Origin: Bacteriovoracaceae bacterium
GTDB taxonomy: Bacteria > Bdellovibrionota > Bacteriovoracia > Bacteriovoracales > Bacteriovoracaceae
DNA length: 64,000 bases
Assembly (NCBI GenBank): GCA_947446575.1
Contig: CANFHC010000007.1
Location: 1 to 64,000 of the forward strand
Direction: 5' to 3'
The position numbers and the translations under genes are program-made. Below are positions 21,194-47,107 of this stretch, in pieces. The notes below the pieces were generated by a model. It saw only the letters and a list, made by a program, of their open reading frames with translations, was not told the DNA's origin and made no database searches. Numbering within the stretch: the stretch's first letter is position 1; every line of letters starts with the position of its first letter.

Positions 21194-22258
21194 TTAATTT
21201 TTATTTTGATTTTTAAAAAACCCATGACGAATTTTCGCTTGCTGCAAGGTAGAAGAATCACAACCAGTGTATTCTTTTGTATTTGTATAAATACTCCCGC
21301 TACTGCGACTACAAAATTCAATATACTCGCAGGTCTGACAGCTTTTAAAGTCATCTCGCTTAAGATTTCTTATCTTGTTTAACACTTCAGAATTTTTCCA
21401 AATTTCAGCAAAAGTCTTTTCACGCAAATTTCCAGAAGCAATTGGAGCCCCAATACATGGAAAGACTTCACCACTGTAACTAATTCCACAAACAGACTTA
21501 GCGCAAGAGCATTGGAGGGCCTTGTCAGGATTCAAAGTCATAAAAACTTCAGCATATTCTCCCGCTAATTGCTCTTGAAACTGCTTCGTAGTTATTTCAA
21601 AATCTTTTGATCCAGAGCTGTCGTCATAACGCTCAGTAATCTCAGTTGAAAATTGAAAAGCAACTTTATGATCTATACAAAAATCTGCCATCTGCTTAAT
21701 TTCATCGATATTATAGCGGTGTAAAATAATATTGATATTAACGTTAAAACCCTGGGCAATAGCATTTTTAATTCCATCAATAGTTTTTCCAAACATCCCC
21801 TCTTTACCAGTTAACTTTTGATAAGATGTTTCAGAAAATCCATAGAGACTAATATCAATACTAGCTAGGCCTGCAAGATCTAATTTTTCACAACGAATGA
21901 CAGTTAATAAAGAGCCATTAGTTTTTAATCTAGCTTCTAAATGATGAGTCCTCGCTCTTTTGATAAAATCTTCAAGATGAGGATGTAATAGGGCCTCTCC
22001 GCCTGTGAAATTAATATAAAAAGCTCCAGAGGCTGCGACCTGATCAATAATTGAGAGAATTTCTTCAGGTTTTAAAGCATTTTCTTTTATAGCTTCAGGC
22101 ATCTCTTTAGTTCGATCGAAGTTGTAACAGTGGTGGCATTTATAATTACACCCTTGGGTTATTTCTATAGTGGTGACGAGAGGAATACATTCGTTGCTCG
22201 CTTTTTTTAAAAACTCTTGAATGATGCTGGGTTTGTAGAATTGATCCTTAACACTCAT
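21194..22258 (-). CDS. Radical SAM/SPASM peptide-modifying enzyme
   Basis: This 354-residue protein has the radical SAM cluster motif CNYKCHHC (Cys37, Cys41, Cys44), a FTGGEALLHP block and a C-terminal SPASM region. The SPASM cysteines lie in CSCAKSVCG, VFPCIGAP, SCQTCEYIEFC and a final GCD. This layout matches PqqE/AlbA-type maturases that modify ribosomal peptides through auxiliary iron-sulfur clusters. It overlaps the PqqD-like gene by 4 nt, which is the usual enzyme/recognition-element pair. The modification (thioether, C-C bond, epimerisation) cannot be read from sequence. Confidence 0.88.
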   Translation of the reverse strand: MSVKDQFYKPSIIQEFLKKASNECIPLVTTIEITQGCNYKCHHCYNFDRTKEMPEAIKENALKPEEILSIIDQVAASGAFYINFTGGEALLHPHLEDFIKRARTHHLEARLKTNGSLLTVIRCEKLDLAGLASIDISLYGFSETSYQKLTGKEGMFGKTIDGIKNAIAQGFNVNINIILHRYNIDEIKQMADFCIDHKVAFQFSTEITERYDDSSGSKDFEITTKQFQEQLAGEYAEVFMTLNPDKALQCSCAKSVCGISYSGEVFPCIGAPIASGNLREKTFAEIWKNSEVLNKIRNLKRDDFKSCQTCEYIEFCSRSSGSIYTNTKEYTGCDSSTLQQAKIRHGFFKNQNKN

Positions 22259-22539
22259 TGGGCACTTTCATGAACCAAGGATTTGTTCTTTAATTCTGTC
22301 ATTAGTTGGTGAACATCTGCACTAGCTGTTTCCAAGTCGATATCAAATTCATTGCAAACACTATTAATTATTTCATGAATTTCATGCTGGCCATCACAAA
22401 GATCCCAGACAAAAGCAGCCACTTCATTTAATTGATGTACTTCTTTTCCAACTTTTGAATCGAGAATAATTGTTTCTAATCCTATTGTCTTATAGGCAAC
22501 CTGATTTACTCTTTTTGGTTTTTTAAGATGCTTTTCCAT
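22255..22539 (-). CDS. PqqD-like RiPP recognition element
   Basis: This 94-residue protein matches the PqqD family: a beta-rich N-terminus (IILDSKVGKEVHQLNEVAAFVWDLCDG) leading to a winged-helix C-terminus (IHEIINSVCNEFDID). PqqD-type RiPP recognition elements bind the leader of a precursor peptide and deliver it to the modifying enzyme. It overlaps the downstream radical SAM gene by 4 nt. The region before its ATG holds TTGCAT, 17 nt and TAACGT ending six bases from the start, a weak leaderless-type promoter. Confidence 0.85.
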   Translation of the reverse strand: MEKHLKKPKRVNQVAYKTIGLETIILDSKVGKEVHQLNEVAAFVWDLCDGQHEIHEIINSVCNEFDIDLETASADVHQLMTELKNKSLVHESAQ

Positions 22540-22591
22540 TGCTAAACGTTATTATTTATACATATTTAATGCAAGAAAAATATGAGTTGAC

Positions 22592-22619
22592 TTGGCTTGC
22601 TATGAAACTGGTCTATACT
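22592..22619 (+). promoter_or_regulatory. Candidate promoter for the nucleotidyltransferase gene, leaderless type
   Basis: TTGGCT (22592-22597), a 16-nt spacer and TATACT (22614-22619) end six bases before the ATG at 22626. This favours 22626 over upstream candidates such as the TTG at 22539 or the ATG at 22569. Confidence 0.45.
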
Positions 22620-22625
22620 TATAAA

Positions 22626-23576
22626 ATGGAATTTCAATTACCTATTAATGAAGTTTTAAAAGTTCAAAAAAACTTTTCACAATTGTTGAATGAGCATCAT
22701 TTGTCAGGTTTATTTTATCAGTTTTTCAACAATTCCCAATTGCCCATAGAATGTCAGCAGCAATATAAAAAACAATGGATTCATAATTCACTAATTCTAG
22801 AAGAAATTGCAGAAATAAATGTGGTAGCTCTCAAATACAATACAACTTCTGCCATGTTAAAAGGTGCGCATTTGCTTGGAGAAATCTATACTGACCTAGG
22901 TTCACGTTTTCTTTCTGACCTAGATTTACTGATTAATCCCAACGACAAAGTAAATTTTGAAAAAGTTTTGTATGAATGTGGCTATGTGAACCGCTTTGAG
23001 GAAAAATTTCATGGCAACCATTTTAAATCTGATTGGTTTAAATTAGTAGGTTTAGTTGAAATCAACTTGGAGTTACACACTCAGCTTTTTTTTCATCTGG
23101 ATCAGGAACATTGGGATTTAAAACCAAGTTATTTATCCCAGTTTTATAAATTAAGTGATGAAGACCTCGTAATTCATTTATGCGGTCACTTGGCATTTCA
23201 ACATAATTTTTTAAAACTCTTTTGGCTTTTTGATCTTTATTTTTTGTTAAATCAAAAAAAAGACAAATTAAATTGGGCAATAATAAAATCCAAGTCAAAA
23301 GATAAGCAACTTTATAGATCTATTCAAATGTGTCTCTGGGCGCTATCACAATACTATGGTTTAAGTCTTGGACAATATATTGAAGATCTTTTTAAGTTAA
23401 AAAACAAACATTGGTGGCAGAAATACTTAACTTTAGATTTTTTAGTTTATCCACATAAAAATAAAAAGAATTATTTCATTATTAAGCACGCGACTAAAGA
23501 TCAGCTAAGAACTGCTCTTTATTATAATTTAACTTGGTTTTATCACTATAAAATTGAAAAATTTTGGTCAAAATAA
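22626..23576 (+). CDS. Nucleotidyltransferase-fold family protein of the RiPP cassette
   Basis: With the start at 22626 the protein has 316 residues. Its central block AMLKGAHLLGEIYTDLGSRFLSDLDLLI carries the GS..x..D.D pattern of the uncharacterised nucleotidyltransferase family (NTP_transf_5 type). The rest is helical and rich in aromatics. Members occur in RiPP and lasso peptide clusters with PqqD-like and HPr-kinase-like genes, as here. The frame is open back to TTG 22539, but the promoter-like TATACT supports the shorter start. Its last 83 nt overlap the convergent S26-type gene. The nucleotide transferred and its target are unknown. Confidence 0.78.
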   Translation: MEFQLPINEVLKVQKNFSQLLNEHHLSGLFYQFFNNSQLPIECQQQYKKQWIHNSLILEEIAEINVVALKYNTTSAMLKGAHLLGEIYTDLGSRFLSDLDLLINPNDKVNFEKVLYECGYVNRFEEKFHGNHFKSDWFKLVGLVEINLELHTQLFFHLDQEHWDLKPSYLSQFYKLSDEDLVIHLCGHLAFQHNFLKLFWLFDLYFLLNQKKDKLNWAIIKSKSKDKQLYRSIQMCLWALSQYYGLSLGQYIEDLFKLKNKHWWQKYLTLDFLVYPHKNKKNYFIIKHATKDQLRTALYYNLTWFYHYKIEKFWSK

Positions 23577-23952
23577 AAAGCATCCCTAAAGCAATTCTTC
23601 GACTTGTTCTTCCTTGCATTCTTAATTTTGATAATAGAAGAAATACTTTAGTAAACCTGGAATGACTTGCTGGGAACTTGCGAAAATAATCTTTTCTCTC
23701 GAATCCTATCGCGCGACCAAGTAAAGCTTCATTTGCATTAGCCTCATAAGCTAAACTAAAATCACCTTTTGTTTGTAAGGGAAATTCTATTAGACGGTGA
23801 AGAGTCAGTTCTCGGCTTTGTTGGTCTAAAAACAAAACTACGTCACCGTAATTTAATTGATCGGGATTTATTGATTCGATAAGAATCTGGTCATCGTCTT
23901 GCAGGAGCGGAGACATGCTTTGTCCCAAATAATTTATCCAAAATTTTTTCAT
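23494..23952 (-). CDS. S26-type signal-peptidase-like protein
   Basis: From ATG 23952, whose ATGA overlaps the stop of the kinase gene, the protein has 152 residues. It shows the S26 nucleophile motif GQSMSPLL (Ser12), then NYGDVVLFL and LTLHRLIE. The His in the last block is where the ER/SipW-type branch has its general base. There is no N-terminal membrane anchor; the C-terminus has one hydrophobic stretch (ALGMLFILTKIF). It may trim the RiPP leader or process another cassette product, but this is inference. The frame is open to ATG 23970, which lacks a ribosome site. Confidence 0.75.
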   Translation of the reverse strand: MKKFWINYLGQSMSPLLQDDDQILIESINPDQLNYGDVVLFLDQQSRELTLHRLIEFPLQTKGDFSLAYEANANEALLGRAIGFERKDYFRKFPASHSRFTKVFLLLSKLRMQGRTSRRIALGMLFILTKIFQFYSDKTKLNYNKEQFLADL

Positions 23953-24854
23953 GGATCCAACAACTCCCATATTGAGGATTCTTTTTTAAAATTTAATTGA
24001 TAAAACTTTACTGTGCTTGTAGCCTTTTCGGAAAAATCTATTAATTTTTCTATTTTTTCACTTGGTAAAGTCGGCCAATGTAAATTGGCAAAACTAGCGA
24101 GAAGGTATTGAGTGGAGGTTAATGCATCTAATTCAATTTTTCCATTGATTTTGTCTTGATGTAACCAGTAGATTGCTTTTAACGGTACTTTTTTTCCATA
24201 ACCAATCATGGAGTTAAATCTTCCTCCAATTGCCCCAGCTTCCGCATACAACTGACCATTTTCAACGCTAATTAAATTCATGTCATCCCCAAGAACAAGT
24301 CGTGGCGACGATAATTCAGTAATCGTAGTCTTTCCTGCATTAGAATGCCCAAGAAATAGATGAGCTTTAGACTCTTTATCCAAGACACACGAGGCATGAA
24401 CAACAAATGAATTTATTTCCATTAATTTCTCTGATAAAAACCAGCGCAAGAAATTATAGAGTCCATCGCTCATTTCTTCTTCACATAGGAGAAGTACTTT
24501 TTTTTCAACAATCTTTGCAGCAAAATCTCGCTGAATAGCAATGGTGTTATTTTCTTTTGTAATACAATCCTGCGAGCTTTCATCACTAAAACTTTCTATC
24601 GTGAAACCAAATTCACTCGGACTCAATAAATAAATTATTGATTCAAACTTTGTATTCGTTATCCACTCTGCTGGAATTATTTTTTTTAATTCAGTGATAA
24701 ATTTTTGTGACTTACTTTGAAAGTGCAGAGGGATACCATGATAGTGACAGCATAAAGAATAAGCAAAAAGAGAGGTATTTAAATTATTTTCAAAATTATA
24801 AAGGTTATTTAATTTTTGATCAAATAGTTTTGGATTAGAAAGTTCTTCATTCAT
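23949..24854 (-). CDS. HPr-kinase-like protein of the RiPP cassette
   Basis: This 301-residue protein has a C-terminal P-loop kinase domain like HPr kinase: VVHASCV, the Walker A GHSNAGKTT (residues 169-177), and LVLGDDMNLI with two Asp (190, 191). The N-terminal 140 residues are not HprK-like. HPr-kinase homologues in some lasso peptide clusters phosphorylate the C-terminal Ser of the precursor. The adjacent candidate precursor here ends in Ser. The gene starts 3 nt after the precursor stop and overlaps the S26-type gene by 4 nt. Confidence 0.82.
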   Translation of the reverse strand: MNEELSNPKLFDQKLNNLYNFENNLNTSLFAYSLCCHYHGIPLHFQSKSQKFITELKKIIPAEWITNTKFESIIYLLSPSEFGFTIESFSDESSQDCITKENNTIAIQRDFAAKIVEKKVLLLCEEEMSDGLYNFLRWFLSEKLMEINSFVVHASCVLDKESKAHLFLGHSNAGKTTITELSSPRLVLGDDMNLISVENGQLYAEAGAIGGRFNSMIGYGKKVPLKAIYWLHQDKINGKIELDALTSTQYLLASFANLHWPTLPSEKIEKLIDFSEKATSTVKFYQLNFKKESSIWELLDP

Positions 24855-24857
24855 TGT

Positions 24858-25031
24858 TTATGAATTAAGCTTACTAGCATTACAAAAAGAAGGCCCAGAT
24901 ATTGTCGTTTTTTTTCCTCCAACAGTTGTACCATTGCAAACAGCACCATAAGAATTCAACTTTTCTGATAAAATCACTGGCTTTGTGTACTTACGTTTTT
25001 TCATGGAAGTCTTCTCTGTTTTTTTATTCAT
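24858..25031 (-). CDS. Candidate RiPP precursor peptide, 57 residues
   Basis: This short frame starts with ATG 25031, overlapping the last 8 nt of the 2025-residue protein gene, and ends 3 nt before the HPr-kinase-like gene. A second in-frame ATG is at 25004. The N-terminal part is basic and contains KYTKPVILSEKL, like the YxxPxL leader signature bound by RiPP recognition elements. The C-terminal part has two cysteines (Cys32 and Cys50), a Gly-Gly pair (residues 38-39), many Ser/Thr/Asn, and ends KLNS with a C-terminal Ser. Position and composition argue for a substrate of the PqqD/radical SAM/kinase cassette. Confidence 0.72.
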   Translation of the reverse strand: MNKKTEKTSMKKRKYTKPVILSEKLNSYGAVCNGTTVGGKKTTISGPSFCNASKLNS

Positions 25032-28000
25032 GATTCATCCTCATAACCTTTCTTGTTCCATAGGCTATCAAAAACATATAGAAAATCCACTCTAAAAGTC
25101 CTTCATGCCATGGTGTACTACTCGTTCCATCACTAGCTGAAGCCGTACAGCCAAACATTCCTTTCTTCGCTGTTGATGCAGCAGGAGCAGCTGGACTATC
25201 TGGAAATAATTGGGCCGGCATCATAAGACTCGGGTCACCAATTATGCTAAAACTATTAACGATATCTTTTTCGTATAATCCATCGCCCACACCTAGTTTT
25301 GCTTGATAAAGCAAATCACCAAAACGCATTCCGGTCCATGGTCTCTGAGTCTCTGCAGATAACTGACTAAAAAAGTTTTGCGCCAGTTTTGCTTGTGCCG
25401 GAGGAGTCGTTTGAGTTGTTGAGCCCATAAAAACGATTGCCCCACCATTAGGATTAAAGATCAACTCTTCGCCTAAGGACTTAGACGTTTTATCTGCATC
25501 ATAAAAATAAGCAGTCTCACAATTCCAAAGAACAACAATTGGAAGAATTGAATTGGTCAAAAATCTCGCGTCCGTAACATTGAAGATATTGTCACCAAAA
25601 CGATCTGAAGCTCCGTGCCCCATCATAGAAATCATTAATGGACCCAAATTAAATTCATTATTAATTTTAGTTTTTGTAAGTGCCTTTGACCCCAGTTCTG
25701 TGCGGTCGTATAGTTCATTGGTAAAACCAGTGGTTGCAGTCATCATAGATTGAGTAAATTGATTAAAATGTTCATGATTGCTAGTATCTTCATCAGCAAA
25801 GAATGATAATTTTTTTAAGTAAAATGTTGGTGCCGTCACACCTTCTTCGTAATTTACAATTTTTTCTGCATAAACTTTTATCTTATCCGGATCATTAGTA
25901 GGAAGTCGACCTACAGATAATCTTGGCAGATGAGAGCTGTTAGAGGATACAAAATAATTGTCGCTTGAAAAATCAATAAAGCGTCCGGGGATTATTGGAG
26001 CTGGTATCGTTCCTTTTTCAAACACGGCTTTTGCATTGTCTGCCAGTCCATTAACGTTGAAATCTTTAGGGTCGTAAGTACCATCACCCAAAATTAATAA
26101 AAACCGTGGAGCCTTTTCCCAATTATTCATTGCGGTATTCATAAAATCTTTTAAGGCTTTTGATTTTTGAACTCCGAAACTAAACTCTCCATAAACCTGA
26201 GTCGGTGTGACAGTTTTAACTTCTAGTCCTTGACTAATTCTTCTATCAATTAATCCTTGTAGAGCATTAATTAAATTTTCATCTCCAAAAACTATTAAAT
26301 CAGCGCGGTTATTCGTATTTTTTAAGCTCGTCTCGACACCTGGATTTAATGAAAGAGCAGAAGGTTTATATAAATTATCTAATGTATGAAACGCAAAATG
26401 TTTTAAATTGTTTTCATCGAGAATATCATCAACAAAAAATTTCGAATCAAAAGTGGTACCACCAACGGCCGCAGTAATTGCCAAATTAATCATTTTCTTA
26501 GGCTCTAGTGGAATAGTAATATCATAACCTAAAATTTGATCAGTAGAGAAATTTCCAATAGTGTAGGCCTTGAGAGAATCTGCTAGACTAAATGAAGTGA
26601 GTCCTGATGAACTTGCATTGCTACCGTTATAAACAATCTCAATCTTATCGACTAAAACAAAGTCATTATCCGTCACCGGAGCAAATGTTCCTAAAACTTT
26701 AAATTGTAGGGTGTTGTTTCCGGCATTGAATTCAGAAGCTGGAATTTCAAAACTTAAAACCTGTCGTGTATTCTCTTCAAAAATCGCTTCACCTTCAACT
26801 GTTCCTCCAATTGATAGGTTTACATGATGTTTTACTGGATTCCCTGACATTCCAAGGCGACCTTTAATATAATATTTCACAACAACATTTTCTGAATTAG
26901 TGACATCAATTTCAGGAAGTGCTGTAGTCACACTTAAAGTTTCCATTCCTGGATAATTGACAAGATTAGCGTAGAAAAAATGATCGAGACTATCATTTAA
27001 AGTTATCCCATCAATATAGACTAAGTTTTGCTCTAGTGTTTTTGTAAATTTCTCCAATACAATATTTGAATCAGCCTGTCCCGATGGATCAACATCCAAA
27101 ACTTCTATTCTTTTGGGAGCTGCGGTTGCTTCCGTAATATTCACAGGACTTAGAATTAATTGATTCATTTTACTTTCAATTTCAGAATTAAAAGGCACAT
27201 AAAATCGAATATAATCACCAGCGCCGAAGCTGCCATTGGCAGACGAAATCTCCAGTGGAATTTCTACGTCTTTGTAGTAAAGTCTCCAGCTTGCCGTTGC
27301 TGAATTTTTAAATGGACCATCAACTTGTGAGCTTACAAAGTCATCATAACTAATTTGATAGATACCACTTTTTGTATAATCAATTCTTAAAGTATTATTT
27401 AACGAATATGGACCTATATTTGAATTTACATTAGGTGGAGTAACATCCCAGTCATCGCCATTTAAACCAATATCTAAAATAATTTTACTAGCGATCGTTA
27501 TTGCCGATGTCAGTGGATTTAATTTTAGTGGGCTTATTTTTAACTTTATATATTTAGACTTATTACTTGTCACAAGTTCTGAAGCTATTGCGAAATAAGC
27601 TGTCGGATATAAAGCTCCACTACCGTACCTAGTCGCATCCGGAGCATAACTTGGAATCAAGACACCACTTCCATCCAAAGTATAATTGGGTGCAGGAGTT
27701 ATTAAATGTCCAGTCATTACATTTTCTGTAACAAATGAATTTATAACTTGAGCTGTTTGAGCAAAACTTTGCACTTCAACTAAAATATCTTTTTCAGGAA
27801 GTTCTGGACTTCCCACTGTTGTCATTTTTGAGTAACCGGCAATGCTCACGTCTTGGTAAGTAGCATTCCATGCGCTATCACTAAACACTGGTGCTGGAGG
27901 TGTAATTTCAAGGCGCAGAGATTTACTTGTTTTACCGAGAATAATTACTCCATTTCCTAAATCTTCATATGTAGGATTCGGTATTGGAGCTGGACTTGTT

Positions 28001-31000
28001 GATCCACCATTATTAATTGGGTCATTAGGATTAATATCAGAATTTTCTCCTACATTATCTGCAGGAGGATTTCCGAGGCTTGCAAGAGCGGTCGCGGAGA
28101 CCGGTCCATGCAATACTTTTTTTCCACCGACTTCAACATCTTCGATATAATAATAATAAGTCTGACCATTCGTTACATTTTGATCAATAAAACGATAGTC
28201 TGCTTGATTACTTCCCGAACTTTTTAAATTGCGCAATAATGTTTTATTGATCTGTTGAAATTGAGCTGAATAAATATCAGAGCGGTATACATTAAATCCC
28301 ATATGATTTCTTTCTGCATTCGTACGCCATCTTAAATCAATGGCCGCATTAAATGGGACAGCATTAAAATAAAGCAAACTCACAGCAGAGACTGATCCAG
28401 ATAAACTCACTGTACAAGAAACGGTTGAAATTTTTGTTGTTACATTAAAAGTAGGTTGAGTCTCATACCAATCCCCTGTCCATCCAGTGAAGTCAATACT
28501 ATGCCCTGCACATCCGGTAGAACTTACAAGTTTATATCCTTGAGCACTCGTTGGATTTGTTCCTGTAAAATTATTAAATGCTCCCCAGTTCCACGCTATA
28601 TTAGTTGCGGTCACAGGGATAGTACCAGAATTATTCAATTGAATAACTTTTACACTCGCATAACTGGTAGAGAGATTTGTAAACTGCCCACCAGTTAAAG
28701 CACTCACGATAGTTGTTCCACCAATATTTAATCCATTGATTCCTAAACGATCAAAGTTAAATCCGGTCAGGCTTAGCGTTCCACCAGTTGTCGTAAAATT
28801 AAATGATCCAGATGGTGCTTCGATAATTCCTTTTGTCGCAATATTTTGAGGAAACCCATCGGAAGTTCCTAAAACTTGAAAACTACCTGACGACATTGCA
28901 AAAGTCTTTCCATTTGGAATTTCAAGTGTTCCATTTGCTTGAACTTTTAAAGTAGCTCCAGCTAAAGTTGCACCAGCTGAAAAAATTAATTTTCCACCAC
29001 TCATAATATTTAATGTCCCTGTGCTGACATTTGGTGCGTTTGTAACAGTCATCGTTCCTGAATTATTTATTGTCGCAGCAAGAGCATTGTTTATAGTTGC
29101 AATATTTAGAGTTCCACCAGCGGCAACTGAAATAACTGAAGTTGCATTGGGAGTAAAATTAGTTACATTTAAAACACCACCGCTCAGTACATTGATAGTC
29201 GCACCTGCTCCTGGAGTAAAACTTGAAACAGTCATTGTTCCACTAACATTTGTTGTTGATGTACTTGTCGGTGAATAAGTCGGAGTATTAAAAGTACCAC
29301 CACTTGCAACTGTAATGTTTCCAGATGGAGTTGCAGAAGTCGTTGCACTCAATAAGCCACCAGAGTTAATTGTCGTTGTTCCAGTTGCTGCAGGAGTAAA
29401 GGTTGGAGTTGTCATTGTCCCTGTAATAGATAATGAAGCAGTTCCAACTGGTGCAGATGAGGTTGCAACAGTTAAAGATCCAGTCGCTCCAACAGTTGTA
29501 GTCGATCCTGTTTTTGGATTGTAAATGGGCGTAGTCATTGTTCCATTTACGTTTGTCGTACCTGCTGGTGTAGAAGTAGTTGTCACTGCTAATAATCCTG
29601 GAGAGGCATTAACTGTAACAATACTTCCAGCGGCCGGATTAAAAGTTGAAGCATTCAACGTTCCCGAAATACTCGTTGTTCCGGCCGTTGGAGAATAAGT
29701 TCGACCAGTGGCCACTGAATTGAAAATACCACCAGAAGCGATAGTAATATTTGTTGCTGGTGAAGCTGTCGTAGTCGCTTCAATTTTTCCACCGTTATTA
29801 ATCGTAATACTTGAACCAGCACCAGAAGCTGTTGGACTAAATGTTGGAGTTGTTAAAGTTCCTGAAACCGACATATTCAATGCTAATCCTGTAGCTATCG
29901 AAGAGACCGAGGGTTGAACTTTACCACCAGCATTTATGATTACAGTACCCGTTGGTGCAAATGTTGTTGAATTAAGAGTTCCGTTTACTGTCAGCTTTCC
30001 AAGTGGTACTGAAGCACCAGAAGCAGTAACTGTTCCTCCAATGGTAGTCGTTGATCCTGCTCCAGGAGAAAATGTTGTACTTGTCATCGTACCATTCATA
30101 TTCAAAATACCTAGCGGAGTTGAAGTTCCTGAATCTGTAATTGTTCCCGTTGAACTAACCGTCGTTGTCGATGTAGCCGTTGGGTTGAATGATGTCGTTG
30201 TCATTGCCCCATCTAAATTCAATATACCCGCTGGAGCAGAGGTTGTAGTGACATTAAGAGTTGCAGTGCTGAGAACGGATGTAGTAAAACCTGCGACTGG
30301 GTTAAATGTAGAAGTTGTTATTAATTTACTAGCTGGATTAACTTTAAGACTTCCGCCTGAAACAGTATTGGCAGCAGACAAGCTATCGACTTGAAAAGTT
30401 CCAGAAGTAATATCTAAACTATTTGCTTTTGTATTCGTGTAAGTTGTGGCCGTGATTTTCCCCACGTATTTTGAAGAATTCAAACCTGTATTTGCAAGAG
30501 TTGTGATCGTGGCTGTTGCGGCATTTAAATTTGTTACAGTTGCACCAAAAGATGCTCCGCCTGGAATTGATGTACTAGCAACAGTTAATGCTTTTAATGT
30601 AGTTGCCTGATTAAATGTAAAAGCTTGAGCATTTGCAGGTGTTAAATGTGGCCCCATTACAAGAGTTAAACCGCTCCATGTAGCAAGTGCTCCAGCAGTA
30701 TTTGAAGTAAAACTGTCACCTTGAAAAGTTAAAGATACGATACTTGAACCAGTTATAATCCCGGGAGAATTAATTGTTACGCATCCAACAGATGTTGTTA
30801 AATTTTCAGTAACGTTACCACCATTTACAGTAACATCTTCAGTGTTTACGTTGGGAATATTAGCTGGAGACCAGTTCCCTGCCGTATTCCATGAATTCAC
30901 GGTACCGCCCCAAGTAATAGGTGTTCCGGTACAAGCAGCATAAATATTTTGGGCGAAAATAAATAGCGATAAAAACAAAAATAACTTATGTCTAAAATTG

Positions 31001-31101
31001 ATATTAAATTTTTTGGCATTAAAGAAAAATCTTATAACTTTCCCCTTTAGCCTAAATGATATCTCATCATTATTTGGCCCTACAGAGGCAAAAACGATCA
31101 A
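25024..31101 (-). CDS. Giant secreted gingipain-type (C25) surface protein with beta-repeats
   Basis: This 2025-residue protein has a signal peptide (hydrophobic core about residues 40-55, before AACTG). Thr/Ser/Gly-rich degenerate repeats of about 37-40 residues follow to about residue 720, then an FnIII-like segment near 905-985 (GFNVYRSD to YYYIEDVEVGG). A C25 peptidase domain occupies about 1590-1960. Its catalytic signature is MMGHGASDRF (His) and LWNCETAYF (Cys), followed by FSIIGDPSLM. The C-terminus has GCTAS, then a helix (LEWIFYMFLIAYG) and basic TRKVMR, like a sorting or anchoring tail. The frame opens at TTG 31101 without a ribosome site. AAGGGG lies six bases before an in-frame ATA downstream, so the true start is uncertain. 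Confidence 0.82.
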   Translation of the reverse strand: MIVFASVGPNNDEISFRLKGKVIRFFFNAKKFNINFRHKLFLFLSLFIFAQNIYAACTGTPITWGGTVNSWNTAGNWSPANIPNVNTEDVTVNGGNVTENLTTSVGCVTINSPGIITGSSIVSLTFQGDSFTSNTAGALATWSGLTLVMGPHLTPANAQAFTFNQATTLKALTVASTSIPGGASFGATVTNLNAATATITTLANTGLNSSKYVGKITATTYTNTKANSLDITSGTFQVDSLSAANTVSGGSLKVNPASKLITTSTFNPVAGFTTSVLSTATLNVTTTSAPAGILNLDGAMTTTSFNPTATSTTTVSSTGTITDSGTSTPLGILNMNGTMTSTTFSPGAGSTTTIGGTVTASGASVPLGKLTVNGTLNSTTFAPTGTVIINAGGKVQPSVSSIATGLALNMSVSGTLTTPTFSPTASGAGSSITINNGGKIEATTTASPATNITIASGGIFNSVATGRTYSPTAGTTSISGTLNASTFNPAAGSIVTVNASPGLLAVTTTSTPAGTTNVNGTMTTPIYNPKTGSTTTVGATGSLTVATSSAPVGTASLSITGTMTTPTFTPAATGTTTINSGGLLSATTSATPSGNITVASGGTFNTPTYSPTSTSTTNVSGTMTVSSFTPGAGATINVLSGGVLNVTNFTPNATSVISVAAGGTLNIATINNALAATINNSGTMTVTNAPNVSTGTLNIMSGGKLIFSAGATLAGATLKVQANGTLEIPNGKTFAMSSGSFQVLGTSDGFPQNIATKGIIEAPSGSFNFTTTGGTLSLTGFNFDRLGINGLNIGGTTIVSALTGGQFTNLSTSYASVKVIQLNNSGTIPVTATNIAWNWGAFNNFTGTNPTSAQGYKLVSSTGCAGHSIDFTGWTGDWYETQPTFNVTTKISTVSCTVSLSGSVSAVSLLYFNAVPFNAAIDLRWRTNAERNHMGFNVYRSDIYSAQFQQINKTLLRNLKSSGSNQADYRFIDQNVTNGQTYYYYIEDVEVGGKKVLHGPVSATALASLGNPPADNVGENSDINPNDPINNGGSTSPAPIPNPTYEDLGNGVIILGKTSKSLRLEITPPAPVFSDSAWNATYQDVSIAGYSKMTTVGSPELPEKDILVEVQSFAQTAQVINSFVTENVMTGHLITPAPNYTLDGSGVLIPSYAPDATRYGSGALYPTAYFAIASELVTSNKSKYIKLKISPLKLNPLTSAITIASKIILDIGLNGDDWDVTPPNVNSNIGPYSLNNTLRIDYTKSGIYQISYDDFVSSQVDGPFKNSATASWRLYYKDVEIPLEISSANGSFGAGDYIRFYVPFNSEIESKMNQLILSPVNITEATAAPKRIEVLDVDPSGQADSNIVLEKFTKTLEQNLVYIDGITLNDSLDHFFYANLVNYPGMETLSVTTALPEIDVTNSENVVVKYYIKGRLGMSGNPVKHHVNLSIGGTVEGEAIFEENTRQVLSFEIPASEFNAGNNTLQFKVLGTFAPVTDNDFVLVDKIEIVYNGSNASSSGLTSFSLADSLKAYTIGNFSTDQILGYDITIPLEPKKMINLAITAAVGGTTFDSKFFVDDILDENNLKHFAFHTLDNLYKPSALSLNPGVETSLKNTNNRADLIVFGDENLINALQGLIDRRISQGLEVKTVTPTQVYGEFSFGVQKSKALKDFMNTAMNNWEKAPRFLLILGDGTYDPKDFNVNGLADNAKAVFEKGTIPAPIIPGRFIDFSSDNYFVSSNSSHLPRLSVGRLPTNDPDKIKVYAEKIVNYEEGVTAPTFYLKKLSFFADEDTSNHEHFNQFTQSMMTATTGFTNELYDRTELGSKALTKTKINNEFNLGPLMISMMGHGASDRFGDNIFNVTDARFLTNSILPIVVLWNCETAYFYDADKTSKSLGEELIFNPNGGAIVFMGSTTQTTPPAQAKLAQNFFSQLSAETQRPWTGMRFGDLLYQAKLGVGDGLYEKDIVNSFSIIGDPSLMMPAQLFPDSPAAPAASTAKKGMFGCTASASDGTSSTPWHEGLLEWIFYMFLIAYGTRKVMRMNHE
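28960..30480 (-). repeat. Degenerate tandem repeats inside the C25 protein gene
   Basis: About a dozen imperfect units of roughly 110-120 nt encode segments built on the theme NGTMTT-x-FNPTAGSTTTV-x-SGG. They predict stacked beta-strands (beta-helix or filament). Units differ at many positions, so the array looks old rather than freshly amplified. Confidence 0.65.
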
Positions 31102-31189: not shown

Positions 31190-31966
31190 TTAGAAGAATT
31201 GAGCCTTTCGCTTGAGGGAGCTAATCAAGTATTTCTGCAATATTAATGTGATTGAAATAAAAAATACTAACCAAAATAAAAGAATAGCAACTGAATTTAA
31301 ATCTATTTTTTGTGACTGAAAAATCGCGCGTGAAATTTTTAGAATTTGAGTCTGAGGAATATAATCAGAAATGTTTTTAAAATATTTTGGAAATATAGTT
31401 GTCGGAAAATACAATCCCCCAGCAATTGCTGCAAAAGATTGCAAAGTATGAAATAAAGCAATTCCACGGCCAAATTTCAAATAGAACATATTTGTACTCA
31501 AGGCCATGCAGGTAAAAAGAGCAACTGATAAAACTTGTAATAAGAAGAAAAAAAGCAAGTTAGTAAAAAGAAAATAAAAATTGAAGAAGACAAAGCAAGC
31601 AAGCAAAATTGAACAAATTCTAAGAAAAGGAAAGAGAGCATCCACTAAAACTTTGCTTAAGATAAACTGTGTCGGGGAAATCTGTAACCCCAGAAGCGTT
31701 TGATAAAAATGAACGTTTCTCATTTCTTGAAAATAAGAAATAATCCTCTCGGCAAATACCATGGGTAAAATCAATGAAATCTCCCCTACTATTAAAAAAA
31801 TAAAAAGAGAAGAATCTTCATTTCCTTTCAATGAAAAAGATTGCCCAGCATAATACAAAAGAGCAAGGGTAAGTACAATTGAAATTAACTCGTAAATTAT
31901 TTTTACGAGTATCGATTTATTATCTAGAATTTTTTTCAGAAAAAATATAATTCCAATGGAAATCAT
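31190..31966 (-). CDS. ABC-2 type transporter permease
   Basis: This 258-residue protein has six membrane helices at about 25-42, 50-70, 105-130, 135-155, 165-185 and 225-245. The cytoplasmic segment between helices 2 and 3 (ISYFQEMRNVHFYQTLLGLQISPTQF) is typical of ABC-2 permeases. It overlaps the ATPase gene by 4 nt. Together they form a small exporter placed between co-polymerase genes and the C25/RiPP genes. The cargo could be a glycan, a lipid or the modified peptide; the sequence does not decide. Confidence 0.78.
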   Translation of the reverse strand: MISIGIIFFLKKILDNKSILVKIIYELISIVLTLALLYYAGQSFSLKGNEDSSLFIFLIVGEISLILPMVFAERIISYFQEMRNVHFYQTLLGLQISPTQFILSKVLVDALFPFLRICSILLACFVFFNFYFLFTNLLFFFLLQVLSVALFTCMALSTNMFYLKFGRGIALFHTLQSFAAIAGGLYFPTTIFPKYFKNISDYIPQTQILKISRAIFQSQKIDLNSVAILLFWLVFFISITLILQKYLISSLKRKAQFF

Positions 31967-32595
31967 AGAGAACCTAATATAACCATCTCAGTTTTCGCGA
32001 CAGGAATCCATGAGAACTTTTGATCTGTTATAAAAATTAAAGAAGTCGTTGCAAGGAATTCTATTTTCTTTTGAATTTCTTCTCTTGTTTTAGGTGAAAG
32101 ATAAAGAAATGGTTCATCTAAAAAGATTATTTTTCGATCCACCAATAGATGTAAAAACAGACGAAGTAGTTGTTTCATTCCTTGAGATTGATCCGAGACT
32201 TTTTTCAGCAATACTTCTTCAAATATTATAATAGATTTGAATTCTTCAATTTTTCGTTGAATCTCAAGAGCACTCAGATTAAGAATATTCCCAACTAAAT
32301 AGATGTGCTCACTGCCTGTTAAATCACTCATTAATCCAAGACTAGTCGTAGTCAAATAACTCATTTCAGGATTTAAGATTTGCTTGGAGTTATCTAAGAA
32401 TTTTATTTTCCCAGACAGTGGTGTAATAAATCCGGCAAAGGTTTTCAAAAGACTTGATTTACCGACTCCATTGTCACCTTCGATCAATATAATGCCGGGC
32501 CCTTTAAAACTAAAATTAAAATCTTGAAATAATATTTTATCTCCAAGTGTTAGCGATAATTGATTGCATTGAAACTCTAGCGTTCTCTTAATCAA
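31963..32595 (-). CDS. ABC transporter ATP-binding protein
   Basis: This 210-residue ATPase has Walker A GDNGVGKSS (about residues 39-47), a signature-like SDQSQGMKQ, and Walker B IIFLDEPF. The C-terminal His of the switch is replaced (FITDQKFSW), which may lower hydrolysis. It is short, like CcmA-type ATPases. It overlaps both the co-polymerase gene (8 nt) and the permease gene (4 nt), so it belongs to one operon. Confidence 0.85.
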   Translation of the reverse strand: MIKRTLEFQCNQLSLTLGDKILFQDFNFSFKGPGIILIEGDNGVGKSSLLKTFAGFITPLSGKIKFLDNSKQILNPEMSYLTTTSLGLMSDLTGSEHIYLVGNILNLSALEIQRKIEEFKSIIIFEEVLLKKVSDQSQGMKQLLRLFLHLLVDRKIIFLDEPFLYLSPKTREEIQKKIEFLATTSLIFITDQKFSWIPVAKTEMVILGSL

Positions 32596-34075
32596 AGGTA
32601 GGTGTTTCCCCGATGAAATCTAAATTTTTAAAATATAAGCGAATATCATCTTCGTCGTATATTTTATCATCAAGAGAGTACTTTGTGATAAGTGCAATTA
32701 AATATAAAAATCCACTTATGAAAAAACTAAACATAGCAAGTTTAGCCAAGCTTGATCTTCTAAATTCATCTATGAACTGACTTCCTTCTTCAGTAATTAT
32801 ATCAGAGTTCATGGTGGCATTAATAAGTTTTAAAGACATCTGCTTAGACTCCAGACTCTTTAAGAAATCTAAATCTGCCTTCATACCATTCAACTTACCT
32901 TCATTGGTCATTTTTTGTTTTAATAGCTTATCTAGCTCTAACTGAGAGCTAGTATAATCTTCATTTAACTTTGCTATCTTGTTTTTAGAAACTAAAAAAT
33001 CAAATTCCACATTGCGAGAATTTTCCATTTGTTTTTCAAAGAAAGTTTCTTCAATTTGCATTGCCCTAAAGCGTTGTTCGGGGGGAAGCGACTTAAGAAG
33101 TCTCGTTCTTTCGGTATTTAATTGTGAGATGATTAACTCATCTGAAGCACTTCGCAAATCTTCTGGAATATGAGTAAGTGAATTAATGTTTTGTTTTATA
33201 TCTGTCAGGCGAATTTGTATTTTTAACATTTTCTCATATTCGTCTTTATCGCCAATGCCATTTCTCGTTCTTTTTTTATTTTCAAAGAGTTTCGCTTGTA
33301 ATGATTCCGCGTTAGCGGATTCGATGCTTAAGTTATACTGCAACATTTTAACTCTATCTTTCAAGTCAGTAATGTCGTTTACTAGTTTTTCCTGATCTTG
33401 CAAAACAGTGTACCCTCCCATTTTTTGCAAGATCACCCGACTTTCGTCAATTAAACTTGTAACATTATTGATTTCTTTTTGAACTGTATATTGGCGAATT
33501 CTAATTCGATCTTCTTCGACTGCTTTCGATATTAATCTACTTAAAACTTTTGCCGTATTTTTATCAATAGCATTAACAGTAATTTTAAAACGATTTTCCG
33601 TTCCACCTTGTTCTAGTGTGTAAAATGCTCTGATGGAATTGGTCAAATTGCTAATGACACATTCTTCATTACCAATGCATTTCTTTCGCAGTTCACTCCC
33701 TAGAATTGATCTCACCGATTGAACATTGCCAAAGTTTAATTTATCAAAAGCTGGCTCAGAAACGATATATCTAGAAAGTATTTTTAAAAAAGTATAATTA
33801 GATAATGATACATTAAACTCTTCAAGAGTAATTTCAGTTTTGTTTTCAGACGGTAACAAGCTAGATAAATCAGTTGATATTCTATGACTTGCTTCAACTT
33901 TGAGAGGAATATTCATGGTAAAAATTAAGGGTTGATCATAATAATTATAAAATAAAACTAAGAAAAAAACAATCCCCCCCATCACCATAAAAATTTTATA
34001 TCGACGAGAAATCAAAAAGAAGACTCTGAAATCAATTAGCGTATTTTCGTGAAACAATCCTGTAAGTTTTTCCAT
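32588..34075 (-). CDS. Polysaccharide co-polymerase (Wzz/Wzc-N-like), copy 1
   Basis: This 495-residue protein has one helix near the N-terminus (about residues 27-46), a long periplasmic region dominated by coiled coil (about 190-420) and a second helix near the C-terminus (about 443-465). This is the PCP layout of chain-length regulators, without a fused kinase domain. The next upstream gene encodes a BY-kinase-like protein, as in CpsC/CpsD pairs. It is clearly a paralog of the protein at 35065, with shared segments such as SLKLLNATM-type and NRF-x-SVNAI-type motifs. Confidence 0.82.
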   Translation of the reverse strand: MEKLTGLFHENTLIDFRVFFLISRRYKIFMVMGGIVFFLVLFYNYYDQPLIFTMNIPLKVEASHRISTDLSSLLPSENKTEITLEEFNVSLSNYTFLKILSRYIVSEPAFDKLNFGNVQSVRSILGSELRKKCIGNEECVISNLTNSIRAFYTLEQGGTENRFKITVNAIDKNTAKVLSRLISKAVEEDRIRIRQYTVQKEINNVTSLIDESRVILQKMGGYTVLQDQEKLVNDITDLKDRVKMLQYNLSIESANAESLQAKLFENKKRTRNGIGDKDEYEKMLKIQIRLTDIKQNINSLTHIPEDLRSASDELIISQLNTERTRLLKSLPPEQRFRAMQIEETFFEKQMENSRNVEFDFLVSKNKIAKLNEDYTSSQLELDKLLKQKMTNEGKLNGMKADLDFLKSLESKQMSLKLINATMNSDIITEEGSQFIDEFRRSSLAKLAMFSFFISGFLYLIALITKYSLDDKIYDEDDIRLYFKNLDFIGETPTFD

Positions 34076-34791
34076 TAGAATAGCCCCAAAATTTTCTTTC
34101 TCTTCGGGGTAGACTCCATAGGAGTTGTATCAAACAGAACTCCGTTCAAGTTAATATTATAATTACTAAAAAAACTCTTAACCGATTCAACTTCTTTGCC
34201 GCTCGTATTGTTTTGGGAAATGATAACTGTCATCGATTGATATAAATGCGATATCCTGAAATGAAAATGTGGATTTTGCTTGATCTTTTCCATGTCGGGA
34301 ATATCCCACAAAACAATGTCATACATATCTACAATTTTTTGCACTTCAACTTCAAAGTGTTTTGTATAAATATGATTGCTGTAGAATTTATTGAACTCTG
34401 AATAATTGATAAAATCAAAATGATGATGAAAAGAATGACAATCTATTGTATCTGCACCTTCATCAATACTATAAGATTTTTTCTCAGATGCATTAATCAG
34501 TTCATTAAACACTCCCTGATCTAAATTATCAGAAATAATAGCAACTTTACAATCCGAACTCTGATCAAAATAACAGCACAATCCTAAAATAGTTCGCTGT
34601 TGCGAGTTTTTATATCCAGTAGAGGTAAAAGCAAAACTTTTAATCCCTTTTTGTACTTCTTGAAAAAAGCCTTTTCCAATCTTAAAAAGCTCTTCGTGAT
34701 TTGATATCTTATAAAAATATGAAGCAAGTTGATCCGTAGACAATTTTGCTCCTTCAGGATCAAATAGTATTAATTTTTTAGCTGAGCTCAC
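34075..34791 (-). CDS. BY-kinase-like protein lacking the P-loop, copy 1
   Basis: This 238-residue protein has the general order of a CpsD-type tyrosine kinase. The segment expected to be the Walker A reads FAFTSTGYKNSQQRTILGL, without the GKS/T. A Walker B-like YDIVLWDIPD keeps its Asp. The C-terminal MTVIISQNNTSGKEVESVKSFF fits the fold. It is therefore probably a pseudo-ATPase that partners the adjacent co-polymerase. It starts with GTG, with GAGGAG five bases upstream. A paralog is at 36553. Confidence 0.72.
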   Translation of the reverse strand: MSSAKKLILFDPEGAKLSTDQLASYFYKISNHEELFKIGKGFFQEVQKGIKSFAFTSTGYKNSQQRTILGLCCYFDQSSDCKVAIISDNLDQGVFNELINASEKKSYSIDEGADTIDCHSFHHHFDFINYSEFNKFYSNHIYTKHFEVEVQKIVDMYDIVLWDIPDMEKIKQNPHFHFRISHLYQSMTVIISQNNTSGKEVESVKSFFSNYNINLNGVLFDTTPMESTPKRKKILGLF

Positions 34792-34922
34792 TTCATCTCC
34801 TCACTAAAGAGGATTCTCTTTAGAAGACTTCCTAGACAATGAAAAAAAAATCTCGATAAATTTTTATCTTCAGCCTCGCGATGGCCCAAGTTAAAATTAA
34901 TTTTAATATTCGTAGTTTTCAT
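34788..34922 (-). CDS. Possible small protein upstream of pseudo-kinase copy 1
   Basis: A 44-residue frame (MKTTNIKINFNLGHREAED at its start) ends within the GTG start of the pseudo-kinase gene, overlapping it by 4 nt. It is basic, with a short aromatic patch (FFFHC). No good ribosome site is seen: GGGAG is about 16 nt away. It could be a leader peptide that couples translation, or a chance frame. Confidence 0.35.
   Translation of the reverse strand: MKTTNIKINFNLGHREAEDKNLSRFFFHCLGSLLKRILFSEEMK
34804..34823 (-). promoter_or_regulatory. Perfect hairpin just before the ribosome site of pseudo-kinase copy 1
   Basis: CTAAAGAG, AATC, CTCTTTAG form an 8-bp stem with a 4-nt loop. It ends within two bases of GAGGAG, the ribosome site of the gene at 34791. 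No T-run follows, so it is more likely a translational or processing element than a terminator. Confidence 0.45.
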
Positions 34923-35064
34923 TATTAGTTAGAGTCTCCCTTCTAAACTAATCGGGCGCACACATAAACAGTTTAGATTTATTGAGAATACTAATGAGGA
35001 GGTAAATATTTGCCGATTACGAGGGAAAAAAACAAAGTAATTTAGTCTGAAAAATTATATTTGA

Positions 35065-36552
35065 TCAGAATTTAGGGACTTCCCCAATAAAATGAAGGCC
35101 TTTTAAGTGACTGCGAATTTCTTCTTCGCCATAAATGCGATCATCCATTAAGAATCTAATAAGAAGAGAGAAGAAATATAAGAAAAAGGTTAAGCTTGCA
35201 CTAAACATAAAGATTTTCATGAAGCTTGATTGACGAAATTCGCTAGCATTAGAACTTGTATCTTCAAAGTATAAATCAGTCGTCATAGTGGCATTGAGGA
35301 GCTTTAAAGACATTAATTTGGCTTCAAGACTTCTAAGAAACTCTAGGTCGGTTTTCATTCCAGCAACTTTCGTTTCATTAGAAATTTTATTTTCCAACAT
35401 AGTATCGAGTTCCTCTTTGGCAATTTCAAAATCTTCATTTAACTTTTCGAGCTTATTTTTCGAGACGATATATTCAAACTCAAAATCGCTTGCCTTAACT
35501 CGTTGCCCATCTGCAAAATTTTCAGACAGCATCATATTTCTTCTACTACGCTCGGACGGTAGTTTTTTTAACAATGTTTCTCTTTCTTCTGTTAGCTGAG
35601 AAATAATTAAATTATCAGAACTTGATCTTTTTTCCGGGGTAATATTTGATAAAGCATAAATATTTTGGTTAATTTCTGTTAAGCGCATTTGATTTTTTAC
35701 TATTGATTCGTACGCGTCTTTACTTGCAACACTCCGATCTTGAGTTGATTTTTTATTTTCATTCAATCTTGATTCTAGTGCCTTAAAGTTGGCTAATTCT
35801 TGACCTGTACTCGACTGCAGCATCTTGATTTCTTCTTTCTTGCTATCAATACTTGTTTGTAACTTTTCTTGTTCTTCTAGGGCTTGGTATCCTTCCATTT
35901 TTTGCATTATAGATCTACTTTCTGCAATTAGATTTCCGACACTTTGAATTTCTTTAAGAACTAAATACTGTTTTGCATAGACTCTATTTCCTTCAATGGA
36001 TTTGATCAAAATTGGCGTTATAATTTTAACAGTTTTTTTCTCAATTGCATTTACTGACAAAATAAAACGATTTTCAGTTAAACCTTGATCAATTGAAAAA
36101 AGTGTCTTCAGTGAGTTTGCAACTTTTACTTCAAGACATTCTTTATCTGCCCCGCACTCCTGGCGCATTTTTTTTGCATAAAGATTTTTAATCGAGCTTG
36201 TTGCACCTAAATTTAATTCATCAAATGACTTATCTGCAATGACGTGCTTTGCAAATTCTCTCAAGAATGTAAAATTATCCAAAGAAATTTTGAGTTCACT
36301 TACTGTTAAAAGATTGGCGTTATCAACTGGAACGAGTGCGGATAAGTCATGTGAAACGGTATGGTTGGCAACTACTTTTACAGGTACATTTACAGCATAA
36401 ATAATTGGTTGTTGATAATAATTATAGACAAAAAAGCCGCACGTAAACGCAATCGCAATAAAAAAATGCGCACTATATCTTAGGGACAGCTTCCAAAGAA
36501 GCTTGAAATCCAAGATTGTAGTTTCGTTTAGTAGTTGGCTAAGTTTCTCCAT
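35065..36552 (-). CDS. Polysaccharide co-polymerase (Wzz/Wzc-N-like), copy 2
   Basis: This 495-residue protein has the same length and order as the one at 32588: helix near residues 25-45, coiled-coil periplasmic region, helix near 443-465. Shared segments include SLKLLNATMTTD near the C-terminus and ENRFILSVNAIEKKT in the first half. It starts directly after the stop of pseudo-kinase copy 2 (TAG then ATG). It seems to be a duplicated pair that arose with the neighbouring gene. Confidence 0.82.
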   Translation of the reverse strand: MEKLSQLLNETTILDFKLLWKLSLRYSAHFFIAIAFTCGFFVYNYYQQPIIYAVNVPVKVVANHTVSHDLSALVPVDNANLLTVSELKISLDNFTFLREFAKHVIADKSFDELNLGATSSIKNLYAKKMRQECGADKECLEVKVANSLKTLFSIDQGLTENRFILSVNAIEKKTVKIITPILIKSIEGNRVYAKQYLVLKEIQSVGNLIAESRSIMQKMEGYQALEEQEKLQTSIDSKKEEIKMLQSSTGQELANFKALESRLNENKKSTQDRSVASKDAYESIVKNQMRLTEINQNIYALSNITPEKRSSSDNLIISQLTEERETLLKKLPSERSRRNMMLSENFADGQRVKASDFEFEYIVSKNKLEKLNEDFEIAKEELDTMLENKISNETKVAGMKTDLEFLRSLEAKLMSLKLLNATMTTDLYFEDTSSNASEFRQSSFMKIFMFSASLTFFLYFFSLLIRFLMDDRIYGEEEIRSHLKGLHFIGEVPKF

Positions 36553-37290
36553 CTATCCAAAAATTCCTAAAAACTTTTTACGTTTTGGTTTATCTTCTAT
36601 ATCCGGTGTATCAAACAACACACCACTTAAATTAATATTGTAGTTACTAAAAAACTTTTTAATGAATTCAATTTGTTTTCCAGAAGTTGTATTCTGGGCA
36701 ACAATAACGGTCATCGAGTCATAAAAATGTGCCATTCGGCTATGAAAATGAGGAAGTTTTTTCATAGCTTCCATTTCAGGAATATCCCAAAGGATTACAT
36801 CATATTGAGCTAAAATTTTTGAAACCTCAGCATCAAAATTTTTAGAATAAATATGATTTTCATAAAACTTTTGAAATTCTTTATATTCAATAAAATCAAA
36901 GTGATGATAAAAAGATTTATAATTCAGCACGTCCCCTTCTTCTCCCATGGGGTAACTATTCTGAGTTGAAGATTCTACTAAATCATTAAAAACCCCATGC
37001 ATTAGGTGATCCGAAATAATGGCAATCTTAAAATTAGTGTTTTGATCAAAAAAACAGCATAACCCTAGGACGGATTTTTGTTGAGAATTTTTATAACCGG
37101 CAGAAGTGAAAGCAAAACTTTTTACGCCCTTTTCAACTTGTTTCAAGAAACCATTCCCGACTTTAAAAAGCTCGTTGTGATTAGATATTTTATAAAAATA
37201 ACCAACTAGTTTATCCATTGAGACGTCACTGCGAATAACTTCTTTTTCAGTTTTGTCCTCAATAATGACAATTTTTTTAGCCAAACTCAT
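36553..37290 (-). CDS. BY-kinase-like protein lacking the P-loop, copy 2
   Basis: This 245-residue paralog of the protein at 34075 has FAFTSAGYKNSQQKSVLGL where the Walker A would be, again without GKS/T, and YDVILWDIPEM as Walker B-like segment. The C-terminus (SGVLFDTPDIEDKPKRKKFLGIFG) is basic rather than Tyr-rich, so the autophosphorylated Tyr cluster of active BY-kinases is missing. It overlaps the third paralog by 4 nt and abuts co-polymerase copy 2. Confidence 0.72.
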   Translation of the reverse strand: MSLAKKIVIIEDKTEKEVIRSDVSMDKLVGYFYKISNHNELFKVGNGFLKQVEKGVKSFAFTSAGYKNSQQKSVLGLCCFFDQNTNFKIAIISDHLMHGVFNDLVESSTQNSYPMGEEGDVLNYKSFYHHFDFIEYKEFQKFYENHIYSKNFDAEVSKILAQYDVILWDIPEMEAMKKLPHFHSRMAHFYDSMTVIVAQNTTSGKQIEFIKKFFSNYNINLSGVLFDTPDIEDKPKRKKFLGIFG

Positions 37291-40422: not shown

Positions 40423-40579
40423 AAGGCCCTCCAAGGACATTCTATTGATAATTTTAACCTAAGGGCCGTCTTCTATCCTGAGGGGCAAATTACTCCTTAA
40501 TCTGAGTGAAATTCTTAAGTTCTTAAAATATTAGGATTTATTTAGAATAAAGAGCAAGGCGATCGGGAATTGAATAAAT

Positions 40580-47071: not shown

Positions 47072-47078
47072 ATCGAGG

Positions 47079-47107
47079 AACATAGGTCAGTGCATGGAGC
47101 TTTTCAA
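47079..47107 (-). promoter_or_regulatory. Candidate promoter for mtaB, leaderless type
   Basis: On the minus strand TTGAAA (47107-47102), a 17-nt spacer and TATGTT (47084-47079) are followed by seven bases and the ATG at 47071. The alternative ATG at 47083 lies inside the -10, which supports the shorter start. Confidence 0.5.

Follow-up and report, generated by a model that had tools for sequence, protein, structure and literature searches.

Kinases resembling HPr kinase (HprK) occur together with nucleotidyltransferases in two described kinds of ribosomally synthesized and post-translationally modified peptides (RiPPs): in lasso peptides of the paeninodin/pseudomycoidin type (PadeK, PsmK/PsmN), reviewed in PMC9266682, and in the linear polyphosphorylated peptides (LPPs) of Bacillota, described in 2026, which are encoded with a RiPP recognition element (RRE), an HprK-like kinase, a nucleotidyltransferase and an archaeal-type signal peptidase (PMC13381572). 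The present study concerns a gene cassette of a Bacteriovoracaceae bacterium, in which such a kinase and such a nucleotidyltransferase stand beside a radical S-adenosylmethionine (SAM) enzyme. The stretch of DNA analysed (GCA_947446575.1, contig CANFHC010000007.1, positions 1-64,000 of the forward strand; 64,000 nt) is referred to as the window, and all coordinates are those of the window. Its source belongs to the Bdellovibrionota, a phylum noted for its predatory members. The data support a cassette of RiPP type, the precursor of which is genuine and conserved and which contains no lasso cyclase; its likely product is a short peptide of high sequence conservation that would be modified by the radical SAM enzyme and phosphorylated on its last residue.

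The gene of the 57-aa precursor (24858..25031, minus strand) ends 3 nt upstream of that of the HprK/PEPCK-superfamily peptide kinase (23949..24854, minus strand), which is followed on the same strand by the gene of an S26/S24-type (archaeal/SipW-like) signal-peptidase-like protein (23494..23970; NCBIfam sigpep_I_arch, E = 1.4e-7, under the cut-off). The 4-nt overlap described earlier for kinase and peptidase holds if the likely internal start ATG 23952 is used; with the longest open reading frame (ORF) it amounts to 22 nt. A PF14907 nucleotidyltransferase gene on the plus strand (22626..23576 with its likely ATG at 22626; longest ORF from 22539; Pfam E = 6.3e-29) is convergent to the peptidase gene and overlaps it by 83 nt. 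Beyond it, again on the minus strand, follow the PqqD-like RRE (22255..22539; PF05402, E = 2.5e-17) and the radical SAM/SPASM peptide maturase (21194..22258; PF04055, E = 7e-27; SPASM PF13186, E = 2e-10), which overlap by 4 nt. The genes, their spacing and the precursor residues Cys32, Cys50 and C-terminal Ser57 are as the original prediction had described them.

A survey of conserved gene neighbourhoods, proposed along with that prediction, found homologues of the short peptide beside the same genes in related genomes. Besides that of the window's own genome, 10 good kinase homologues were found in a search of 97 related genomes; a homologous short peptide is situated beside cassette genes in nine of these 10, and in the tenth (G028) upstream of its C25 peptidase gene (see below). 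Across the phylum (369 Bdellovibrionota genomes; all co-occurrence P values are from Fisher tests uncorrected for shared ancestry), a profile of the precursor detected the family in 35 genomes, usually as a single copy, and in around 30 genomes other than that of the window homologues of the 57-aa ORF adjoin homologues of the same enzymes. The radical SAM subfamily is present in 33 genomes, 32 of which also have the precursor (P = 2e-41, uncorrected for phylogeny); the remaining one, G112, carries kinase, RRE and radical SAM genes on a short contig. Equally, 31 of the 32 genomes with strong kinase matches possess the precursor. Weak kinase matches in G044, G082 and similar proteins of 520-570 aa were dropped, since these resemble PEPCK itself. 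The association of precursor and enzymes is far beyond chance.

Across loci, gene content is stable while gene order varies. Kinase and peptidase are fused in one locus (L015 in G018, 418 aa), and radical SAM enzyme and peptidase in another (L018 in G029, 491 aa); these fusions link the enzymes to a single pathway. G056 has a divided cassette, with precursor, kinase, RRE and radical SAM genes on one contig and C25, peptidase, nucleotidyltransferase and ABC (ATP-binding cassette) genes on another. The distribution is patchy, as 13 congeners of the window's bacterium were sampled and the phylum-wide profile search found the precursor in none of them. Scanning contigs of 84,980 species with the closer alignment set and a strict motif, which may miss others, yielded eight loci, all apparently from Bdellovibrionota; viral contigs contained no true relative, and plasmids no match for precursor or kinase. 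Four cassettes (L019, L063, L069, L073) contain two different PqqD-like RREs, one by the kinase and one by the radical SAM gene. More distant variants exist as well: L087 (G317:C56, 13100-17696) has three consecutive radical SAM/SPASM genes, after which come the genes of an HprK-like kinase and of a 63-aa precursor with a terminal Ser, and the further diverged kinase/nucleotidyltransferase clusters L103 (G034:C176) and L102 (G366:C140) have different Cys-containing precursors, that of L103 ending in Ser.

The alignment of precursor homologues, likewise proposed earlier, comprised 33 sequences. In the window precursor, a leader motif Y15-x-x-P18-x-I/V/L is followed by a core (GAVCNG...GGKK...P..C....L.S) that begins around residue 29 and ends with Ser57. 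Invariant among the aligned sequences are Y15, P18, C32, G38 and K41; a G-x-(R/K)-K motif is kept throughout (position 40 Arg in 31 and Lys in two, position 41 Lys in all 33), the second Cys is present in 33/33, and 32 sequences terminate in Ser and one in Thr. In the diverged precursors of G258, G254 and G317 (L085-L087), the terminal Ser is still there, as are the basic pair following the glycines and the second Cys. Averaged over sequence pairs, identity amounts to 58% in the core, 52% in the leader and 17% in the N-terminal extension. Such a conserved core, which is not hypervariable, points to an unchanging role, for instance in surface assembly or signalling.

Concerning the modifying enzymes, the closest solved relative of the RRE is the lasso RRE TbiB1 (E = 5e-5), and the PqqD-like protein would bind the YxxPxI leader, as the motif and the RRE homology suggest. 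The radical SAM protein carries a CxxxCxxC motif and SPASM cysteines, its closest solved structures being SkfB, PqqE and 5v1q; it would modify the core GAxCNGxxxGG(R/K)K...P..C, most likely by a thioether or other cross-link at conserved Cys. Its matches to viperin, the sole ones in a defence library, were discarded, as the radical SAM fold common to both proteins accounts for them.

In the kinase alignment, His153, the P-loop Lys175, Asp190 and Asp191 are invariant. The AlphaFold model (pLDDT, i.e., predicted local distance difference test, 90) has PEPCK and then HPr kinase as its best PDB folds, and a PDB profile search also leads to PEPCK. The residues fit the His-Lys-Asp-Asp set that is conserved and essential in lasso kinases phosphorylating the C-terminal Ser (PMC9266682); the likeness is to this reported set and not residue by residue to ThcoK. 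Together with the Ser/Thr terminus in 33/33 precursors, this suggests that the kinase places its phosphate on the side chain of the conserved Ser at the C terminus. The nucleotidyltransferase possesses a DxD motif (D118 and D120 in the translation from 22566), and MNT-type nucleotidyltransferases, e.g., ANT(2'')-Ia, are the closest matches of its model, at modest significance (best E = 1.4e-3). In pseudomycoidin, the nucleotidyltransferase-like PsmN is required for a hexose on the phosphorylated Ser (PMC9266682); by analogy, the protein might extend the phosphate, perhaps with a sugar or a nucleotide. In the signal-peptidase-like protein, Ser18, His58 and Gly69-Asp70 are invariant. Ser18, His58 and Asp70 are comparable to the set S29/H68/D93 of LppS, the leader protease of the LPPs (PMC13381572), and the protein is a candidate leader peptidase that would cut off the leader in a similar way.

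The precursor start codon is situated within the last codons of the gene of a giant surface protein of 2025 aa with a C25 (gingipain-fold) peptidase domain (25024..31101, minus strand; PF01364, E = 3e-60), with an overlap of 8 nt and a plausible AGGA ribosome-binding site. Upstream of the latter follow, on the same strand, an ABC-2-type permease (31190..31966; PF01061, weak), a candidate exporter whose homologue adjoins the cassette in many loci, and its partner ABC ATPase (31963..32595; PF00005, E = 4e-16). The minus-strand order from 32595 downwards is accordingly ATPase, permease, C25, precursor, kinase and peptidase, with RRE and radical SAM genes beyond the convergent plus-strand nucleotidyltransferase. 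Since the precursor gene begins within the end of the C25 gene and is separated from the kinase gene by 3 nt, co-transcription of the precursor, kinase and peptidase genes with C25 seems likely. The extent proposed originally for the cassette was correct for the genes it named; it omitted the C25 gene and the ABC-2 pair, which are counted here as part of the unit.

The catalytic GHG and NC motifs are kept in six aligned C25 proteins, and a tail alignment revealed an invariant Cys, a transmembrane (TM) helix and a basic end at the C-terminus. In architecture this tail is like MYXO-CTERM (PMC11980579); the NCBIfam MYXO-CTERM model is not among the matches of the window C25 protein. A profile of the tail detected 22 genomes of the phylum, 19 of which have the precursor (P = 1.8e-19, not phylogeny-corrected), including genomes in which C25 is unlinked or lies on another contig (L091-L093); in one of the 19, G084, the tail match is a different protein of 532 aa with a similar tail. 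The three tail genomes without precursor are G112, which has cassette enzymes, and G110 and G246, which are fragmented assemblies. The tail was also considered as a genome-wide sorting tag, a reading set aside since the window genome has just one such tail. Giant C25 proteins of 2000-3500 aa with such a Cys-TM-basic tail were observed in several loci besides 25024-31101 of the window (G020:C9, G020:C1, G109:C9/C11; L091, L092, L099, L100), and in some genomes they number two or three, distant from the cassette. Polysaccharide genes flank the window cassette; homologues of the window glycosyltransferases (38252-40440) are found near the cassette in nine other genomes, in seven of them both.

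No lasso cyclase is encoded in the cassette; the only Asn_synthase matches of the genome belong to one ORF of 542 aa on another contig (C8), and the lasso B2 protease family PF13471 was not found in the genome (assembly 95.5% complete). A hidden lasso cluster was rejected on these grounds, and the earlier statement that a radical SAM enzyme is present and a cyclase is not has stood: no cyclase explains the kinase and the nucleotidyltransferase. With paeninodin/pseudomycoidin-type lassos the cassette shares the HprK-like kinase with its H-K-D-D residues, the Ser-ending precursor, the nucleotidyltransferase gene and a discrete RRE; it differs from them in having no lasso cyclase or B2 protease, but a radical SAM enzyme and a signal-peptidase-like candidate leader protease (PMC9266682). 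The uncharacterised SynChlorMet systems (NCBIfam ScmC-ScmF) are similar in composition, comprising a radical SAM/SPASM enzyme, a PqqD-like protein and a kinase-like protein. The best match of the window PqqD protein is to ScmD (E = 1.5e-9; 37.9 bits versus a cut-off of 100), and that of the kinase of L083 to ScmC (E = 7e-8; 32.2 versus 125 bits); the window kinase and precursor match none of the Scm models. The sactipeptide and PqqE-type maturases SkfB, PqqE and 5v1q likewise act as radical SAM/SPASM enzymes on small peptides, several with a PqqD-like RRE. Pathways of the SkfB/PqqE type are not known to include a kinase, nucleotidyltransferase or signal-peptidase-like protease. Literature searches joining HPr kinase/HprK, radical SAM and RiPP found no publication, nor did a search for SynChlorMet.

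The surrounding polysaccharide genes would be in accord with a mere juxtaposition of unrelated neighbours, in which kinase, nucleotidyltransferase and RRE would belong to a polysaccharide locus, the radical SAM gene would be unrelated to them and the small ORF would be spurious; this is contradicted by the conservation of the precursor, the co-occurrence, the fusions and the stable content across families of the phylum, such that it is hardly credible. Much more weight is due to a Bdellovibrionota branch of the LPP family, in which polyphosphorylation would be the modification that defines the peptides and the radical SAM enzyme would be accessory, although we regard this as unlikely. Like the lppAKBSDN genes of Paenibacillus alginolyticus, the cassette comprises an RRE, an HprK-like kinase, a nucleoside triphosphate transferase and an archaeal-type signal-peptidase protease (here with the match under the NCBIfam cut-off), a YxxPx[hydrophobic] leader, no lasso cyclase and adjoining polysaccharide genes (PMC13381572). 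The LPPs, however, are described as restricted to Bacillota, with no radical SAM enzyme reported, with an MsbA-like exporter, highly variable precursor C termini and a phosphate on core Ser3 (PMC13381572), whereas in the Bdellovibrionota cassettes the radical SAM enzyme occurs as generally as the precursor, conservation is highest in the core with its two Cys and its Ser/Thr terminus, an ABC-2 pair stands in the place of that exporter and a C25 protein is the partner. Also the leaders (YxxPxVLxHQxIxFETxxS in LPPs versus YxKPxIxSExLxxFGAxCNG in the cassette) have only YxxPx[VIL] in common.

Two other explanations start from the C25 protein. The short peptide might stay unreleased and tag or mature the giant protein, the cassette being a dedicated surface-protein maturation system, which we consider somewhat less probable than a branch of the LPPs. 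It would account for the sharing of genomes by tail and cassette (19/22) even across contigs, for the single tail in the window genome, for the overlap of the precursor start with the C25 stop and for the block in G056 that joins C25, peptidase, nucleotidyltransferase and ABC genes; but C25 is not adjacent to several of the cassettes, no tail was detected in some genomes, tail and precursor have no common motif, and the association may come from joint horizontal transfer. Gingipains are specific for Arg or Lys. The C25 protein might thus be the maturation protease of the exported peptide and cut at the conserved G-G-(R/K)-K site, an idea to which we would give slightly less credence again: the basic residues at positions 40 and 41, the catalytic His and Cys in the six C25 proteins and the gene overlap are consistent with it, whereas the basic pair is retained in cassettes without adjacent C25 (e.g., in G046) and the Arg/Lys specificity is carried over from gingipains.

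The preferred reading, to which we assign a probability of about 0.7, is that the cassette makes a RiPP by means of RRE, radical SAM enzyme, kinase, nucleotidyltransferase, peptidase and ABC-2 export; gene content, conservation and fold are observed, and chemistry, export and function are inferred. It is most likely a radical-SAM elaboration of the kinase/nucleotidyltransferase RiPPs, i.e., of paeninodin-like lassos and LPPs. As the least certain step, the ABC-2 pair would export the product, which would then probably work at the cell surface alongside the C25 protein inherited with it and the neighbouring polysaccharide locus. Only tentatively, and with odds clearly below even, do we propose a distinct Bdellovibrionota RiPP class with a radical-SAM cross-link in a conserved core and a C-terminal phosphoserine extended by the nucleotidyltransferase, the product of which would work with the giant C25 protein and polysaccharide in building or decorating the surface and would not be a diffusible antibiotic. 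Several points weigh against the preferred reading or parts of it. Since two radical SAM subtypes, that of the window and that of L017, which are about 22-26% identical, accompany one precursor family, the chemistry may not be one reaction; the precursor of the distant relative G366 (L102) ends in Cys; and some cassettes have no C25 or an unlinked one. The ABC pair and the polysaccharide link could be mere neighbourhood. Moreover, the LPP, the nearest studied cyclase-free system, carries its phosphate on core Ser3 and not at the C terminus; in a heterologous host, the nucleotidyltransferase of this system was silent (PMC13381572).

The original claim of a new peptide class is therefore to be narrowed: the class with a radical SAM enzyme, the conserved core and the terminal Ser are new, whereas the cyclase-free design of kinase, nucleotidyltransferase, RRE and signal peptidase is not, as LPPs had been described in Bacillota, and SynChlorMet has a similar composition. 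If the preferred reading is true, phosphate-bearing RiPPs reach another phylum and meet radical SAM chemistry there, and a compact system with an almost fixed terminal Ser in its precursor becomes available for probing the unexplained role of PF14907 nucleotidyltransferases. The link to C25 at the genome level offers a functional hypothesis that is directly testable.

Further features of the window lie outside the cassette. Five successive minus-strand ORFs of 238-495 aa without Pfam match separate the ABC genes from the two glycosyltransferase genes (32588-38255), and a second strong radical SAM gene, encoding 439 aa, is found at 45764-47083.

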